64,000 bases of DNA, from the NCBI RefSeq assembly GCF_900095825.1, contig NZ_LT608315.1, positions 262,318 through 326,317 of the forward strand, in the 5' to 3' direction. This document shows positions 15,386-22,967 of this stretch, one piece after another. A program made the position numbers and the translations under genes. Every line of letters begins with the position of its first letter. Position 1 is the stretch's first letter. The DNA comes from Acidaminococcus massiliensis (GTDB taxonomy: Bacteria; Bacillota; Negativicutes; Acidaminococcales; Acidaminococcaceae). The notes below the pieces were generated by a model, which saw only the letters and a list, made by a program, of their open reading frames with translations, searched no databases and had not been told where the DNA came from.

Positions 15386-15414
15386 TTGACAAACTAGGAA
15401 ATAAAAAGTAGAAT
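15386..15414 (+). promoter_or_regulatory. Promoter of the Cys T-box transcript
   Basis: TTGACA (15386-15391), 17-bp spacer, TAGAAT (15409-15414). Transcription would start near 15421. Confidence 0.8.
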
Positions 15415-15420
15415 TGAACC

Positions 15421-15695
15421 AATTTCAAATCCAATCTGTGATGAGGGAAGAGAGTAAGGAAAGGAAACTGGAACAGCGAGCCCGGAGAGTGGAAGCGGGT
15501 GCAGCGTACTTTCCCCAAGTGCATTCCGGAACAGGCAAGGCTGAATCCAGTAGGCCTTCCGGGTACGCCCGTTACAGCGTTCAGAGTAATCCTTTACTCT
15601 CAAAGGCCAAGGCGGTGACGCCTTGGTGAAATTGGGTGGAACACGGTCAAATCGTCCCATGTGCACAATAAGCACAGGGGACGATTTTTTTATTT
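15421..15695 (+). promoter_or_regulatory. T-box leader with apparent cysteine (UGC) specifier
   Basis: The T-box core is GGGTGGAACACGG (15634-15646), followed by a terminator hairpin at 15650-15686 and a T run. Stem I shows the AGTA motif (15453-15456), an AGCGAG bulge (15475 region) and on the 3' side AAGTGCATTCCGGAAC. Aligning this with the known glycine leader (GAAAGGCATTC) puts TGC (15520-15522) plus the following A at the specifier, i.e. tRNA-Cys. No ATG fits the position, so a methionine leader is not supported although the genes downstream resemble MetNIQ. Confidence 0.82.
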
Positions 15696-15714
15696 GGCTT
15701 ACTAGGAGGCTGCC

Positions 15715-16755
15715 ATGATCAAATTCATCGATATCTGCAAAACATATACAAGCAAAGAACAAACTGTCCAGGCCCTGGATCATGTGAGCCTGACTATCCA
15801 GGACGGGGACATCTACGGCATCATCGGACTCTCCGGCGCCGGAAAATCCACCCTGCTCAGCATGATCAACGGGCTAGAGATCCCCACTTCCGGGTCCGTG
15901 CTGGTGGACGGGGTGAACATCCCCAGCCTCTCCTTTTCGGAGATGCTCCAGAAACGCCGGAAGATCGGTATGATCTTCCAGCAGTTCGAGCTGCTGAATT
16001 CCAAGACGGTCCGCCACAACATCTCCCTTCCTCTGATCATCGCCGGGGAAGATAGGAAGACCATCGATGCCAAAGTAGACAAGATGCTCCAATTCGTCCA
16101 GCTGGAAGACAAAGCGGATGTCTATCCGGACCAGCTCTCCGGGGGACAGAAACAGCGGGTAGGGATTGCCCGGGCCCTGATCACCGAGCCCTCCATCCTG
16201 CTCTGTGATGAAGCCACCAGTGCCCTGGATCCGGATACCATGGAATCCATCCTGGATTTGTTGAAGGAAATCAACCGGAAGCTCCACATCACCATCGTCA
16301 TGGTGACCCACCAGATCTACGCCATCCAGAAAATCTGCCACCATGTAGCCGTCATGGAAAACGGCCGGGTCATCGAAGAAGGCAATGTATTCGACATCTT
16401 CAGCAACCCCCAGCAGCGGATCACCCAGAACTTCGTCCGCAGCGTCATCCCCGATCAGATCACCCCTGCAGTCTGCAGCCGGGTCCGCACGGAAGAAACC
16501 AGCAATTATGAGATCCTGCGGCTGAAATTCACCGGGGACAGTGCCTTGGGGGATTTGGTCTACCAGATCAACCGGAAGTTCCTCCAGGTCCGGACTCGGA
16601 TCATCCATGCCACGGTCACCGAACTGGATGAACAGACCCTGGGGATCCTGATCCTCCAGGTCATCGGCCCGGAAGAAGAGATCCAGGCTGTGGAAGCCTT
16701 CTGCAAAGAAAACCAGGTCCATTGTGAAGAGGTGAAATGTGAATATGGATTATGA
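15715..16755 (+). CDS. metN: MetN-type ABC transporter ATPase with NIL domain
   Basis: A 346-residue ATPase. Walker A GLSGAGKST (about 38-46), signature LSGGQKQRV (about 140-148) and Walker B ILLCDEATSAL (about 160-170) are intact. The C-terminal 80 or so residues (from about 262) form a NIL domain, the substrate-sensing domain of methionine importers. It would power the permease at 17921 with the binding lipoproteins at 18592 and perhaps 22119. The T-box specifier points to cysteine or a cysteine derivative rather than methionine as the regulating signal, so the substrate is open; the symbol reflects the family only. Confidence 0.88.
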   Translation: MIKFIDICKTYTSKEQTVQALDHVSLTIQDGDIYGIIGLSGAGKSTLLSMINGLEIPTSGSVLVDGVNIPSLSFSEMLQKRRKIGMIFQQFELLNSKTVRHNISLPLIIAGEDRKTIDAKVDKMLQFVQLEDKADVYPDQLSGGQKQRVGIARALITEPSILLCDEATSALDPDTMESILDLLKEINRKLHITIVMVTHQIYAIQKICHHVAVMENGRVIEEGNVFDIFSNPQQRITQNFVRSVIPDQITPAVCSRVRTEETSNYEILRLKFTGDSALGDLVYQINRKFLQVRTRIIHATVTELDEQTLGILILQVIGPEEEIQAVEAFCKENQVHCEEVKCEYGL

Positions 16756-17893
16756 ACCGATCATCACACTGGCCAAAGAACAATTTTACCAGTTCCACCG
16801 CCGGCCGGAACTGTCCGGTGAAGAATTCGAGACCACCCGGCATATCAAAGATTTCCTGACCCATCAAGGGATCCCTTTTTATGATCTGCCTTTGGAAACC
16901 GGGGTGGTGGCTCACTTAGGGAACGGCAATGGCCCTGTGGCAGCCCTGCGCTGCGACATCGACGCCCTGCCCCTCCAGGAAGAGACCGGCCTTCCCTACC
17001 AGTCAGAAATCCCTGGACGGATGCACGCCTGCGGCCATGACTTCCATACGGCCAATCTCCTGGGGACAGCCCTGGCCCTGAAAGCCGGCGGTCCCATCCC
17101 CGGCACACTGAAACTGATCTTCCAGCCGGCGGAAGAGAAACTGAACGGAGCCTTGAAGATCCTGGATACCGGGATCCTGGACGATGTGCAGGTAATCTTC
17201 GGGCTCCACTGCTGTGCTGCATATGAGCAGGGCACCGTCATCTCCCGGCCCGGATTCATGAACGGAGCCGTGGATGAATTCCAGGTTTCTTTCCAGGGCA
17301 AAGGGAGCCATGCCTGCCGGCCCCAGCTCAGCGCAGACCCTGTGATCATGCTGGGCCAATTCATTGCAGCAGCCCAGACCATCGTCAGCCGCAACCGTCC
17401 TCCCTTCCATCCCCTGGTCGTAGGGATCGGCCATGTGGAAAGCGGCACGGCTGCCAACATCATCCCTGACACCGCCTTTGCAGAAGGGACCATCCGATCC
17501 CTGTACCCGGAAGACAGAGAACTGGCCAAGAGCCGGCTCCAGACCTTGGCAGAAGGGATCGGCCGGGATTTCGGCGGTTCCGCCAGCATCCGGTTCCTGG
17601 AGGGGCCTCCTGCCACCAACAATACGGCGGAATGGGTGGATTTCGTCCGGGATACCGCCCAGCAGTGCGGCCTCCCCTTTGCGGAAGCCCCCGACTCCCT
17701 TTCCGGAGAAGATTTCGCTTTCTACCAGCAGAAGATTCCCGGTGCCTTCATCCAGATGGGGACGGGGATTGGCCCCATGATGCACAATTCCCATTTTGCC
17801 ATCGACCCGGAAACCTTCCGGCTTTCCATTCCCTTCAGTGCAGAACTCCTCCGCCAGGCACTTTCCAGACTGCCGGCAGGAAACCGGCACTGA
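16739..17893 (+). CDS. M20D-type amidohydrolase / N-acyl amino acid deacylase
   Basis: A 384-residue zinc hydrolase. Metal motifs are visible: ALRCDIDALPLQE, the MHACGHDFHTA segment with Cys and His ligands, the Glu pair in QPAEEKLNGA and HCCAAYEQGT. The lid domain has KGSHACRP. This family removes acyl groups from N-acetylated or conjugated amino acids. It overlaps metN by 17 bases, beginning at GTG 16739 (GAGGTG six bases before) or ATG 16745. Being inside a transporter operon under a Cys T-box suggests deacylation of an imported cysteine derivative, as SndA-type enzymes do in Bacillus; this is inference. Confidence 0.85.
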   Translation: MNMDYEPIITLAKEQFYQFHRRPELSGEEFETTRHIKDFLTHQGIPFYDLPLETGVVAHLGNGNGPVAALRCDIDALPLQEETGLPYQSEIPGRMHACGHDFHTANLLGTALALKAGGPIPGTLKLIFQPAEEKLNGALKILDTGILDDVQVIFGLHCCAAYEQGTVISRPGFMNGAVDEFQVSFQGKGSHACRPQLSADPVIMLGQFIAAAQTIVSRNRPPFHPLVVGIGHVESGTAANIIPDTAFAEGTIRSLYPEDRELAKSRLQTLAEGIGRDFGGSASIRFLEGPPATNNTAEWVDFVRDTAQQCGLPFAEAPDSLSGEDFAFYQQKIPGAFIQMGTGIGPMMHNSHFAIDPETFRLSIPFSAELLRQALSRLPAGNRH

Positions 17894-17920
17894 GAGCTTT
17901 TTCGAAAGAGGTGATTCGTT

Positions 17921-18577
17921 ATGTTTGCCAATTTACCCTGGGGCGACCTTGCCCAAGCCCTTGAAAGCACATTGTTCATGGTGGGCTTTTCGCTGGTGGT
18001 AGGCACCATCCTGGCCACCATCCTGGCCCTCATCCTAGTCCTGACCAACGAAGGAGGCCTTTTGGAAAATAAAGTGGTGTATACCCTGCTCAATTCCGTG
18101 GTCAGTTTCTTCCGCAGCCTTCCCTTCATCATCCTGATGACCTTCATCTTCCCCTTCACCAAATTCATCGTGGGGACGAGGATCGGGGTGAAAGCGGCTT
18201 TGGTCCCTCTGGTGGTATTCATCGTCCCCAGCCTGGCCCGTCTCTATGAAAATTCTCTTCTGGGTGTGGACAAAGGGATCATCCGGGCTGCCAAGGCCAT
18301 GGGTGCCAATTATTTCCAGATCGTCCGCTACTTCATCCTGCCGGAAGCCAAAAGTTCCATGATCCTTTCCACCACCATCGGTACCATCGGCCTGATTTCC
18401 GCTTCTGCCCAGGCCGGTGTCATCGGTGCCGGCGGGATTGGGGATATGGCCCTGACCTACGGCTATGAACGGATGGATGTGCCAGTGATGCTGGCAACGG
18501 TGTTCATCCTGGTGGTGTTTGTCCAAATCGTACAGTTCCTGGGCAATTATTTCTCCAAACGGGCCCGGAACCATTAA
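17921..18577 (+). CDS. metI: MetI-type ABC transporter permease
   Basis: A 218-residue permease with five or six membrane helices. The coupling segment AAKAMGANYFQIVRYFILPEA (EAA loop, about 124-144) contacts the ATPase. TTIGTIGLISASAQAGVIGAGGIGDMA is typical of MetI. AGAGGTG precedes the ATG at the right distance. It lies between the amidohydrolase and the binding lipoprotein genes and completes the importer. Confidence 0.9.
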   Translation: MFANLPWGDLAQALESTLFMVGFSLVVGTILATILALILVLTNEGGLLENKVVYTLLNSVVSFFRSLPFIILMTFIFPFTKFIVGTRIGVKAALVPLVVFIVPSLARLYENSLLGVDKGIIRAAKAMGANYFQIVRYFILPEAKSSMILSTTIGTIGLISASAQAGVIGAGGIGDMALTYGYERMDVPVMLATVFILVVFVQIVQFLGNYFSKRARNH

Positions 18578-18591
18578 AAAAGGAGTTGTTG

Positions 18592-19464
18592 ATGATGGAT
18601 CTCTCTGTTTTTCGTAAAAAAAGCCTGCTGAAATTGGCCAGTGTCCTGGCTCTCAGCACCCTGCTCCTGGCTGCAGCCGGCTGCGGCAGTTCCAGCAAAG
18701 AAGCCTCTTCCGGCAAAGCCGGAGAGACCAAAGAGCTGAAGTATCGGGTGATGCCCACTGCCACTTCTGATCTATTCGATGGGGGCATCAAGCCCATCCT
18801 GGAAAAGAAGGGCTACAAACTGACTCCGGTGAAGATCACCGATTCCATCCAGCGGGAAATGGCTCTGGATGAAGGCAAGATCGATTTCCACGTGGATGCC
18901 CACAAAGCCTGGATCGACCAGGTGAACAAGAGCAAAGGGACCCACCTGACCGCCATCCTGCCCCTGCCCACCGTTCCCACCGCCATCTATGGAGGCAGCA
19001 AAAAGACCCTAGAAGAAGTGGCCCCGGGAGACGTGATCGCCATCCCCAATGATGCTTCCAACCTGGCCCGGGCCTACCAGCTGCTGGAACAGCTGGGCTG
19101 GATCAAACTGGATCCCAGCAAGGACAAAGACCATGTAACCGGGAAAGACATCGTGGAAAATCCCAAGAACCTCCAGTTCAAGGAAATGAAAGGGCCGTCC
19201 ATCAACACCATCCGGTCCGATGTGGCGTACATCATCCTGAGAGGCTCTGACGCCTACAATGCCAAGATCGATTTCAACAGTGCCCTGTTCGCAGAAAACC
19301 CGGATTCCATCAAGGATTCCATGCGGATCGCCCTCTGCATTGCAGATAAGAACAAGGATACCCAATGGGTGAAAGACATCATCGAAGCGTACAAATCTCC
19401 GGAATTCAAGGAATATGTGAAGAAAACCGGCAGTTTCTGGATCCTTCCAGACTACATGAAATAA
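18592..19464 (+). CDS. metQ: MetQ-type substrate-binding lipoprotein, first copy
   Basis: A 290-residue lipoprotein of the NLPA family. The signal peptide ends in the lipobox LLLAAAGC, so the Cys is lipidated. The mature part has KYRVMPTATSDLFDGGI, DEGKIDFHVDAHKAW and the NDASNLARAYQLLEQLGWI segment typical of MetQ. The start at 18592 has AGGAG six bases upstream; an upstream TTG pair is less likely. It is about 60 percent alike by eye to the second copy at 22119. The substrate is probably a sulfur amino acid or a derivative of one. Confidence 0.88.
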   Translation: MMDLSVFRKKSLLKLASVLALSTLLLAAAGCGSSSKEASSGKAGETKELKYRVMPTATSDLFDGGIKPILEKKGYKLTPVKITDSIQREMALDEGKIDFHVDAHKAWIDQVNKSKGTHLTAILPLPTVPTAIYGGSKKTLEEVAPGDVIAIPNDASNLARAYQLLEQLGWIKLDPSKDKDHVTGKDIVENPKNLQFKEMKGPSINTIRSDVAYIILRGSDAYNAKIDFNSALFAENPDSIKDSMRIALCIADKNKDTQWVKDIIEAYKSPEFKEYVKKTGSFWILPDYMK

Positions 19465-19505
19465 TGGGAAATGACGTTTCAGCGTAAAAAAAGGAGGAAA
19501 TGAAA

Positions 19506-20423
19506 ATGGCAATGAATTTAACAGGTTCCTGGGTGGCTATGCCCATCCCTTTCAAAAAGAACGGTGACATCGATTTCGACGGATTCAAGGTCCTGATCGA
19601 CCGGCAGATCCAATACGGGACCAATCAGCTTTTCGTCCTGGGCTCCGCAGCAGAAGTCACCCTGCTGACGCCGGATGAAAAAAAGGAAATCATCAAACAG
19701 ACGGTGAAGATCGTGGATCACCGGATCCCAGTCTTCTTCAGCGCCGCTTCCAATGACACCCAGGGTGAGATCGAAATGGCCAAATTCGAAGAAGAACAGG
19801 GTGCGGACGGGGTCATCTTCACGGTTCCCCCCTATGTGCTGATTCCCCAGGAAGATGCCTTCAAGCATCTGGATACGGTGATGAGTGCTACCAGCCTGCC
19901 GGTGGGGATCTACAACAACCCCTCCCGTTTGGGTGTCCAGGTGGAACCGGAAACCATCGCCCGTCTGGCGGAACGCCATCCCAATTTCGTAGTGGACAAA
20001 GAAGCCACCGGCAGCAACTACCAGCTGGTCCAAGTCCAGCGGCTGACCAAGGGGAAAGTGAAGATCATGTGCTGTGATTCCCCCTATTACTCCATCGTCC
20101 TGCCCACCCTGGCAGTAGGCGGCACCGGCCTGGCCAATATCGGCGGGAACATCATCCCAGAAGAAGCAGCCAAATATGCCCGTCCCTGGACCAGCATCGA
20201 TATCGTCAATGAAGGCCGGGAAGAATACTTCAAATACTTCCCCCTGCTCTGCGAACTGTATGAAGTCTCCAATCCAGTGGTGATCAAGGCTGCTCTGAAT
20301 CTCCTGGGCCTTCCCGGAGGCTATGTCCGCCGTCCTTATCAGGATTATGACGGGGAAGGGCTGAAACGGCTGGAAAAAATCATGACGGAACTGGGCGTCA
20401 TGGAAAAATACAGCGTGAAATAA
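19506..20423 (+). CDS. DapA/NanA superfamily lyase or aldolase
   Basis: A 305-residue class I aldolase-fold protein. The Schiff-base lysine is Lys165 (FVVDKEATGS) and the catalytic tyrosine is Tyr136 (GIYNNPSR). The substrate loop that is GTTGE in dihydrodipicolinate synthase reads GSAAE here (46-50), so a normal DapA role is unlikely. The family includes lyases and aldolases acting on 2-oxo acids such as pyruvate adducts. Start 19506 is chosen because AGGAGG is eight bases upstream; ATG 19500 is too close. Its stop is followed directly by the ATG of the PCC-domain gene. Substrate unknown; a role in breaking down an imported cysteine derivative is inferred from the operon. Confidence 0.8.
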   Translation: MAMNLTGSWVAMPIPFKKNGDIDFDGFKVLIDRQIQYGTNQLFVLGSAAEVTLLTPDEKKEIIKQTVKIVDHRIPVFFSAASNDTQGEIEMAKFEEEQGADGVIFTVPPYVLIPQEDAFKHLDTVMSATSLPVGIYNNPSRLGVQVEPETIARLAERHPNFVVDKEATGSNYQLVQVQRLTKGKVKIMCCDSPYYSIVLPTLAVGGTGLANIGGNIIPEEAAKYARPWTSIDIVNEGREEYFKYFPLLCELYEVSNPVVIKAALNLLGLPGGYVRRPYQDYDGEGLKRLEKIMTELGVMEKYSVK

Positions 20424-20825
20424 ATGACGGACTTTGCAGAAGTCTTCATCGACCAGGGCCAGGACATCCGGAAAACCATCGAAGCCTTCGTCATCGAAAA
20501 AGGCTGGAAAGAAGTGATCGTGGTCAATGCCATCGGGTCCGTAAAGGATTTGATCCTGGCTGCCCCCATCAGCAACGAGCTGCCTCTGAAAGTGGGCCGC
20601 ACTCCCTGCTATGGGGCCGCTGAGATCCTTTCCTTCACAGGAGAAGTCATGGTCAAGGAAAAGATGGATCCCCAGCTCCGTCAGGTGTATCCGGATACGG
20701 ACAGTCCCCTTTTCATCCACATCCATGCCAGCTGTGCCCGTGCCGGCGGGTTGGTCATGGGAGGCGGATTGTGGGGCGGTACGGCTTTCCGGAGCCTGCG
20801 GGTGTTCCTCCGGCCGGTGGAATGA
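20424..20825 (+). CDS. PCC-domain (DUF296) protein
   Basis: A 133-residue single-domain protein of the PPC/PCC (DUF296) type. The hallmark HIHASCARAGGLVMGGGLW has the metal-binding His residues and Gly run. It starts on the base after the lyase stop codon, so the two are probably made together. Members are found as AT-hook DNA-binding domains in plants and as stand-alone small trimeric proteins in bacteria with unclear roles, often beside metabolic genes. No DNA-binding extension is present. It is the last gene before a strong terminator. Confidence 0.8.
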   Translation: MTDFAEVFIDQGQDIRKTIEAFVIEKGWKEVIVVNAIGSVKDLILAAPISNELPLKVGRTPCYGAAEILSFTGEVMVKEKMDPQLRQVYPDTDSPLFIHIHASCARAGGLVMGGGLWGGTAFRSLRVFLRPVE

Positions 20826-20893
20826 AGGGAATGGTCTATTTTCCGCACTGTCGCGGACACCGGTCTTGGAAAACTGGAATTGAATAAAAAACG

Positions 20894-20949
20894 GGGCTGT
20901 GGAAACTGCCGGCCGTTGCTTATCGGCAGTTTCCCACAGCTCTTTTTTT
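20894..20949 (+). terminator. Terminator of the Cys T-box operon
   Basis: A long stem (GGGCTGTGG-AAACTGCC with its complement, one bulge) followed by seven T. It ends the operon 15715-20825. Confidence 0.88.
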
Positions 20950-22118: not shown

Positions 22119-22967
22119 ATGAAATGGAAAAAATTACTGGCGGTCCTGGCCCTGTCCGCCGTCACCGCTGGTCTCCTGGCCGGCTGCGGCAGTGACTCCA
22201 AGAAAACGGCGGAAGCCCCTGCCGGCTCGGCCAAAGTCCTGAAATACCGCAGGATGCCCACAGCTACGTCCGATCTTTTTGAAGCCGGCATCAAACCCCT
22301 CCTGGAGAAAAAAGGCTACAAGCTGGAAGCCGTGGGCATCAAAGATTCGGTGCAGCGGGAAATGGCCCTGGAAGAAGGTCAGATCGATTTCCATATGGAT
22401 GCCAATCCCAACTGGCTGGATGCCATCAATGCCAGCAAAGGCACCCATCTGATCGGAGTGCTTGAGATCCCCACCGTCCCCACTGGCCTTTATGCCGGCA
22501 GCAAGACTTCCCTGGATGCTGTTGCCGATGGAGACACGGTGATCATCCCCAATGACGCCTCCAACCTGGCCCGTTCCTACCAGCTGCTGGAACGGCTGGG
22601 CTGGATCAAATTGAATCCTTCCATCAACAAGAACCAGGCCACCAAAGCCGATATCGTAGAAAATCCCAAACATCTCCAGTTCCGGGAGATGAAGGGCCCT
22701 ACCATCGCCAATATCCGTTCTGATGCCGCTTACATCGTCCTCAGAGGCTCCGATGCCTACAATGCCAAGATCGATTTCAGTTCCGCCTTGTTCCCGGAAT
22801 CCGCGGACACCATGAACCCCCGGATGCGGATGTGCCTCAGCATCCAGGAAAAGAACAAGGAACAGCCGTGGGTCAAGGACCTGATCGAGGCCTACAGATC
22901 CCCGGAATTCAAGAAATTCATGGAAACCCAGAGCAAGATCTGGATCTTGCCGGATTATTTGAAATAA
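22119..22967 (+). CDS. MetQ-type substrate-binding lipoprotein, second copy
   Basis: A 282-residue NLPA-family lipoprotein with lipobox LLAGC (Cys about 23). Its mature sequence follows the first copy closely (YRRMPTATSDLFEAGI, NDASNLARSYQLLERLGWI, ILPDYLK end). No ATPase or permease gene accompanies it, so it probably delivers to the MetN/MetI pair encoded upstream, perhaps with a different ligand. AAGAGGTG lies before the start. It ends at a strong terminator shared with the convergent DUF441 gene. Confidence 0.87.
   Translation: MKWKKLLAVLALSAVTAGLLAGCGSDSKKTAEAPAGSAKVLKYRRMPTATSDLFEAGIKPLLEKKGYKLEAVGIKDSVQREMALEEGQIDFHMDANPNWLDAINASKGTHLIGVLEIPTVPTGLYAGSKTSLDAVADGDTVIIPNDASNLARSYQLLERLGWIKLNPSINKNQATKADIVENPKHLQFREMKGPTIANIRSDAAYIVLRGSDAYNAKIDFSSALFPESADTMNPRMRMCLSIQEKNKEQPWVKDLIEAYRSPEFKKFMETQSKIWILPDYLK

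Follow-up and report, generated by a model that had tools for sequence, protein, structure and literature searches.

A cysteine T-box operon of Acidaminococcus massiliensis encoding a MetNIQ-like importer, an M20 deacylase, a DapA-fold lyase and a PCC-domain protein: a candidate system for cysteine salvage

Organization of the operon

We analyzed a stretch of 64,000 nucleotides from Acidaminococcus massiliensis (contig NZ_LT608315.1, positions 262,318 to 326,317; hereinafter the window, to which all coordinates refer), which carries, between positions 15386 and 20949, a T-box leader followed by a predicted operon of six genes, all on the forward strand. An earlier note, made from the sequence alone, described the leader as cysteine-specific and proposed that the operon encodes a salvage route for an acylated or conjugated cysteine. 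The transcription unit begins with a sigma-70-type promoter, TTGACA-17-TAGAAT (15386-15414; 11 of 12 consensus matches), and a leader of about 290 bases separates this promoter from the genes. The T-box model RF00230 covers the leader over the whole model (15432-15662, model positions 1-219, 80 bits, E 7.4e-18), but the score is below the Rfam gathering score of 93 bits, which is why a default Rfam search of the window does not list it. Scores of this magnitude are common in this genome: in the RF00230 covariance search, 7 of its 18 T-boxes, including this one, fall under 93 bits, and the other six precede genes that we read from their protein sequences as leuA, thrS, ileS, leuC, trpE and glyQ. 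An intrinsic terminator hairpin with a T run (15651-15692; -20.8 kcal/mol, z -6.4) is the predicted alternative to the antiterminator, the pairing of which was derived from the model alignment. Taken alone, the antiterminator has no unusual stability (z 0.5), as expected for a structure that is held by the tRNA. A second, strong hairpin terminator closes the unit (20888-20948; -32.3 kcal/mol, z -5.4).

The first gene encodes a MetN-type ATPase with a NIL domain (15715-16755; Pfam ABC_tran and NIL), which scores 353 bits against the curated MetN profile TIGR02314, under the cut-off of 499.7. It overlaps the gene for an M20 deacylase similar to ScmP/YxeP (ATG at 16745 to 17893; Pfam Peptidase_M20), which is followed by genes for a MetI-type permease (17921-18577; recognized by Pfam, below the MetI subfamily cut-off), a binding lipoprotein of the NlpA/MetQ family with an altered ligand pocket (18595-19464; Pfam and pocket residues), a DapA-fold Schiff-base lyase with the motif C191-C192-D193 (19500-20423; Pfam DHDPS, conserved residues, structural model with pLDDT 89) and a PCC-domain protein with an acetolactate decarboxylase-like fold (20424-20825; Pfam PCC, model with pLDDT 94.4, fold matches). 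Thus, the promoter, T-box core, terminator and gene order described in the earlier note were all recovered, as was the junction of 0 bases between the last two genes (20423/20424). The overlap of 17 bases reported there for the first two genes holds for an alternative GTG start of the M20 gene at 16739, whereas the ATG start gives 11 bases.

Cysteine specificity of the leader

In T-box regulation, an uncharged tRNA pairs with the specifier and the antiterminator, and the polymerase passes the terminator. The earlier note read the specifier as TGC (Cys), and the covariance-model alignment to RF00230 bears this out, placing UGC, with A as the next base, in the specifier loop at 15520-15522 and no other codon such as ATG. 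Five bases separate the specifier from the GGAGC-like stem end, and the same spacing is found in the T-boxes of this genome that precede pheS (UUC), metA (AUG), serA (UCC), ileS (AUC) and trpE (UGG), the codons of which agree with the genes behind them (gene names again read from the proteins). The antiterminator bulge UGGA (15637-15640), predicted to pair with the UCCA end of tRNA-Cys, complements U73 of the tRNA-Cys of this genome (anticodon GCA); the tRNA-Cys genes, missed by simple pattern searches, were located with ARAGORN on selected stretches. Among the tRNAs of the stretches examined, which did not include tRNA-Ser, U73 is present only in those for Cys, Gly and Thr, and all three tRNA-Met sequences found in this genome have A73. 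The metA T-box of this genome combines AUG with UGGU, and the T-box preceding its cysE-cysK genes carries a UGC/UGGA pair identical to that of the operon leader. The UGGA/U73 criterion is weakened in its strictness by two T-boxes (L010 in this genome and L030 in genome G053) that have UGGU despite a UGC specifier assigned by spacing. Taken together, the UGC specifier, its spacing, the UGGA/U73 match and the same pair upstream of cysE-cysK establish, at the sequence level, that this leader is a cysteine T-box, with a predicted switching mechanism.

Several additional observations pertain to the T-boxes and cysteine genes of this genome. The T-box L010 (in L133, G000:C4:1780900-1783500), with its discriminator mismatch, precedes genes for a DUF1847 protein and an ABC permease and perhaps controls a third cysteine-regulated uptake unit. 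On the reverse strand of the window, a T-box with the Trp specifier UGG (368-607, 65 bits) precedes a gene read as trpE. Two transposase-like frames are located directly 3' of cysK (L132:1213-2633, reverse strand), and a very similar frame adjoins the MetQ gene in L159.

The importer and the deacylase

In the Neisseria MetQ, seven residues contact methionine (Y81, F98, H100, Y103, R156, N213 and N238), and the N238A substitution lowers L-methionine binding more than 10^5-fold (PMC6739813). The MetQ protein of the operon has S, D, H, W, R, R and I, respectively, in these positions, so that 2 of the 7 contacts are kept. Loss of both asparagines with retention of H100 and R156 is common to all 11 M20-linked MetQ proteins that we aligned, and all seven contacts are intact in the two ordinary MetQ proteins included in the alignment (the second copy in L051, and L084); the alignment is gapped and less certain around N238. 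Given that the missing asparagines are those that hold the alpha-amino group and that an M20 deacylase is encoded in the same operon, we read this pocket pattern as suggestive of a ligand that has a carboxylate and lacks a free alpha-amino group, a description that would fit an N-acylated compound. The transporter is therefore MetNIQ-like but probably not one for methionine; to judge from the pocket residues, the methionine importer of the earlier note stands as to the family and not as to the ligand. The window encodes a second MetQ-type lipoprotein (22119-22967), 64-65% identical to that of the operon and with the same type of pocket except for Asn at H100; no permease gene of its own was seen adjoining it, and this protein may serve the operon permease with another ligand.

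Among proteins of solved structure, the M20 protein has its best relative in YxeP, now named ScmP (41% identity over 354 positions), and TIGR01891 matches the operon protein above its cut-off. The residues shared by the operon M20, the other lyase-linked M20 proteins and ScmP include the MHACGHDxH stretch, which we take to contribute the metal ligands. The preferred substrate of ScmP is N-acetyl-L-cysteine; its activity is about 3% on N-acetylserine and 1% on N-acetylmethionine, and none was detected on N-acetyl-S-(2-succino)cysteine (PMC12757645). At lyase loci outside the family of the window organism, the M20 proteins are 29-31% identical to that of the operon; therefore, M20 proteins of two lineages have become part of this gene set.

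The DapA-fold lyase and the PCC-domain protein

K167, Y138, R143 and C191-C192-D193 occur without exception in the lyases of the window and of the 58 loci described below (59/59), and S49 and Y112 are present in 57 and 58 sequences, respectively, with gaps as the only exceptions. The K, Y, Y and R residues of class-I lyases of the DapA superfamily are present in the operon protein; we presume their equivalence to the E. coli DapA numbering and their roles. The substrate motif of DapA is not preserved: the operon lyase has GSAAE in place of GTTGE/GTSGE, the second threonine is Ala or Cys in these lyases, and CCD occupies the place that the SG(N/D)D loop has in DapA; this placement of C191 and C192 on the substrate side comes from alignment only. 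The score against TIGR00674 is 190.5 bits, below the cut-off of 206.15. The CCD motif does not stem from the search pattern KVKIMCC: the 14 sequences with L190 cannot match this pattern, and yet all have the cysteines. Another DapA-like gene of this genome (L154), located behind an aspartokinase-like frame (both named by reading), has canonical motifs.

The structural model of the PCC-domain protein matches PCC structures with Z-scores of 14.3-16.2 (15.1 for AF0104) and acetolactate decarboxylases with Z-scores of 8.1-10.4 (about 3 A over about 114 residues), compared with 4.8 for PTD012 and at most 4.0 for other folds. It thus resembles AF0104/PH0802 and acetolactate decarboxylase in fold and in the HxH motif and glutamate (E67, H99 and H101, invariant in 36/36 PCC proteins). 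It differs from AF0104/PH0802 in the third histidine (GGH in the archaeal PCC proteins), which is replaced by Gly in 34 and by Ala in 2 of the 36; HxH and this third histidine are presumably the metal ligands of AF0104 and acetolactate decarboxylase. No relative of the PCC protein was found on viral contigs.

Distribution and gene neighborhoods

A search for the M20 protein in 100 genomes (including that of A. massiliensis) produced matches at E 1e-100 or better in 10. In three related genomes (G020, G041 and G050), M20-MetN-MetI, followed by MetQ, stand directly behind a T-box that has UGC and UGGA, and the lyase has no match at 1e-60, so that the smallest conserved unit appears to consist of the cysteine T-box, the deacylase and the importer. 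Of the gene set that the earlier note suggested for comparison, these genomes share the T-box, M20 and MetNIQ, and not the lyase. Genome G099 has the M20 and MetNIQ genes with no T-box match in the stretch searched, and in G090 the M20 gene is present with no importer nearby. The lyase is also absent from 8 other genomes of the genus that were searched; import and deacylation would accordingly work without it.

A contig search with an alignment of five lyases yielded 60 loci, from which we excluded L090 (28% identity) and L091 (23%). The remaining 58 (58-89% identity) come from Acidaminococcaceae, Lachnospiraceae, Oscillospiraceae, Spirochaetales, Treponema, Fusobacteriaceae, Elusimicrobiota and Fretibacterium. 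These loci are not independent, as L079 and L086 belong to one genome and L032-L034, L038, L079 and L086 appear to overlap the genome-search set. Neighbors were counted within about 10 kb of the lyase, and several contigs are short; some assignments rest on weak matches or concern genes of the opposite strand (TRAP in L072 and L075, 38-40%, and in L077, 32%; CyuA in L075, 30%). The names CyuA, CGL, TAXI, YfcC and DadA are group labels, representatives of which were checked against Pfam and NCBIfam: the CyuA group is recognized by Pfam SDH_alpha only, and the cystathionine-enzyme group is recognized by Cys_Met_Meta_PP only and stays below all NCBIfam cut-offs. Among the representatives checked, such a cut-off was passed only by PatB and LarE.

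A PCC gene is found near the lyase gene in 35 of the 58 loci, an M20 gene is found in 18, a CoA-disulfide-reductase-like gene in 31, a CyuA-type gene in 12 (the weak match included), and any of CyuA, CGL, MalY, CysK or OAHS in 22. With one CyuA gene per 3 Mb genome, chance alone would place it within 10 kb of the lyase in about 0.4 of 58 loci; as the loci are related, this figure gives only a rough scale. All nine MetNIQ-type loci have M20, seven have PCC, none has the reductase and seven have cysteine or sulfur genes; M20 is likewise present in 8/8 YfcC-type loci. In Lacrimispora xylanisolvens DSM 3808, locus L044 combines MetNIQ with M20, the lyase and PCC. There are 34 TAXI/TRAP loci, and M20 is found in none of the 30 that lack YfcC; at 11 of the 58 loci, several of them on short contigs, no transporter is visible. 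Hence the lyase and PCC genes do recur with the transporter in other species, a conservation whose lack the earlier note had named as grounds for abandoning its proposal, and a single inherited block does not explain the association because gene order differs between the groups. At L077, the gene 3' of the lyase belongs to the D-cysteine desulfhydrase/CuyA family, with scores below the curated cut-offs. Seven loci (L037, L054, L058, L063, L068, L056 and L074) have a flavin/iron-sulfur oxidase set of four genes (labels HcnA, HcnB, Fd and DadA) beside the lyase; a CyuA-type gene occurs in five of these, with none seen in L056 and L074. The set, which compares with sarcosine and glycine oxidases, may point to an oxidation that precedes the lyase reaction.

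For lyase loci outside A. massiliensis, the searches with RF00230 covered five related genomes in full and the loci L030, L032, L033 and L034. The Succiniclasticum lyase clusters have no T-box in front, and a strict T-box core pattern, which misses weaker boxes, found none further before lyase operons. A tRNA-Cys gene, located directly before a MetQ-type gene, heads the lyase cluster in two loci (L032:173-246 and L033:6225-6298), and another precedes MetQ on a contig with the lyase, PCC, MetN and MetI genes (L031:5383-5456); these three, out of 20 stretches examined, all come from one genus, and the tRNA-Cys and the MetQ-type gene that follows it are possibly co-transcribed. In G053, a T-box with UGC/UGGU (L030:6190-6426, reverse strand) is divergent from the M20 gene of the cluster and precedes genes of the URO-D, B12-binding, MtmB and RACo families, a set of corrinoid methyltransferase type that a cysteine T-box thus appears to control.

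A candidate route for cysteine salvage and its alternatives

With moderate confidence, we propose that the operon scavenges an N-acylated, further masked form of cysteine and frees cysteine from it. When cysteine is low, the anticodon GCA of uncharged tRNA-Cys would pair with UGC and its UCCA end with UGGA, the antiterminator would be held, and transcription would continue past the terminator into the operon. Judging from the pocket residues, homology and co-occurrence, the MetNIQ-type ABC importer would then take up an N-blocked cysteine derivative, from which the ScmP-related M20 deacylase would strip the acyl group. The lyase, through a Schiff base at K167, and the PCC protein might take off a second, carbonyl-bearing mask to free cysteine, although these steps could follow another order. 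This last part, in which the lyase and PCC protein unmask a carbonyl-containing cysteine adduct, is a tentative suggestion that we consider doubtful as it stands. Thiazolidines, sulfonates, lanthionine and cysteine-pyruvate adducts are candidate substrates, and the data favor no single one. The salvage route of the earlier note is thereby supported in part, through the cysteine specificity, the recurrence of the lyase and PCC with the transporter and M20, and the N-blocked ligand suggested by the MetQ pocket and the M20 association. Release of cysteine as the outcome is favored by the T-box; in other species, the route may be catabolic, considering that the lyase is often accompanied by a CyuA-type gene. 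CyuA breaks cysteine down to pyruvate and sulfide (PMC9040844), a breakdown that the chemistry proposed here could supply where species have TAXI/TRAP together with a CyuA-type gene.

Several findings weigh against this proposal. N213 is lost also in L159, a MetQ of this genome that was not seen beside M20, and is replaced by Thr there as well as in two cluster MetQ proteins (L032_311 and L034_7253), so that the loss of this residue is no proof of a changed ligand. YkuR, in a similar identity range to ScmP, has no activity on N-acetylcysteine (PMC12757645), and homology alone therefore does not settle the activity of the M20 protein. The lyase is missing from the three minimal operons and the 8 other genomes of the genus, 36 of the 58 lyase loci have none of the listed cysteine or sulfur genes within about 10 kb, and 23 have no PCC gene, with several contigs being short in both counts. 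Finally, apart from the divergent one in G053, no T-box was found at the lyase clusters of the five related genomes searched in full.

Some of the same observations fit an alternative in which the transporter and M20 alone serve cysteine, supplied as N-acetylcysteine or a similar compound, and the lyase and PCC act on something else, such as a sulfur-free keto acid. The minimal operons without these two genes, and the 30 TAXI/TRAP loci where the lyase occurs with no M20, speak for such a division. Nevertheless, the lyase repeatedly accompanies transporter sets that include M20, and does so in more than one gene order, which weakens the notion that it and PCC are hitchhikers, and, with cysteine or sulfur genes near the lyase in 22 loci, we regard this alternative as unlikely. 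Still less probable, in our assessment, is that the lyase mobilizes sulfur, with a Schiff-base-bound mercapto keto acid passing it to the Cys-Cys pair and the resulting sulfide reaching CysK. This would account for the invariance of C191 and C192 in the segment aligned with the DapA loop, for the CoA-disulfide-reductase-like gene in 31 loci and for the same control of cysE-cysK in this genome, but the reductase gene is found neither in the MetNIQ-type loci nor among the six genes of the operon, and the position of the cysteines at the substrate depends on the alignment. That the operon encodes a methionine importer under a misread leader is very improbable: the membership of three proteins in the MetN, MetI and MetQ families agrees with it, but the methionine reading of the leader is ruled out by UGC and by UGGA against A73 of tRNA-Met (compare AUG/UGGU at metA), and the MetQ pocket is altered in an operon that includes M20. 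Lysine or diaminopimelate salvage, to which family resemblances point (DapA and an N-acetyl-diaminopimelate-type M20), was rejected as the least credible reading because a canonical DapA-like gene is present elsewhere in the genome, the operon lyase has GSAAE and CCD, and the leader reads Cys.

Relationship to known systems

The switch itself is of a known type. In Clostridium perfringens, cysteine T-boxes precede cysK-cysE, cysP1, cysP2 and the ubiG operon and were shown experimentally to be induced on cysteine limitation; they share with the present leader the TGC specifier, the T-box motif with TGGA and control by a terminator. The genes controlled there are cysKE, transsulfuration genes and Na+ symporters, and the accessible text mentions no M20, MetNIQ, lyase or PCC (PMC2940859). 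A parallel to the proposed route is the scm (yxe) cluster of Bacillus subtilis, which acts on S-(2-succino)cysteine through import and M20 deacetylation to cysteine and in which the adduct-breaking enzyme varies between clusters, being either ScmK or 2SL (PMC12757645, PMC9706529). The operon is similar in combining an ABC importer with an M20 protein (ScmP in that cluster) predicted to yield cysteine. Unlike the scm cluster, it encodes, among its six genes, no acetyltransferase, ScmK monooxygenase or 2SL, its transporter belongs to another family, and a DapA-fold protein and PCC are present instead. With respect to MetNIQ importers, all three subunit families and the NIL domain are in place, but the methionine contacts of MetQ are mostly lost and MetN and MetI remain under the curated cut-offs. 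Similarly, the lyase shares with the DapA (HTPA synthase) superfamily the class-I site lysine, tyrosines and arginine, and differs from DapA in having GSA(A/G)E for GTTGE, the invariant CCD and a different gene context. Thus, the operon follows a general scm-like scheme, but none of the labels scm cluster, methionine importer or DapA is applied to it here. A literature search, with subscription journals largely outside its reach and other sources covered in part, found no paper that describes this gene set, as the earlier note had supposed; the set appears to be undescribed.

Implications

Speculatively, the CCD lyase may be an oxygen-independent cysteine-unmasking lyase or a sulfur-mobilizing Schiff-base enzyme, aided by PCC, in gut and rumen anaerobes of several phyla, and would then parallel, under anaerobic conditions, the scm route with its monooxygenase, a possibility we hold with considerable reserve. 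If the proposal is correct, gut and rumen anaerobes would own a dedicated, oxygen-free means of recovering cysteine from a blocked form, and two protein groups named for their folds, the DapA-like lyase and the PCC-domain protein, would gain a context in sulfur metabolism. Because the cysteine T-box would give the pathway a defined trigger, screening for the substrate would be direct.

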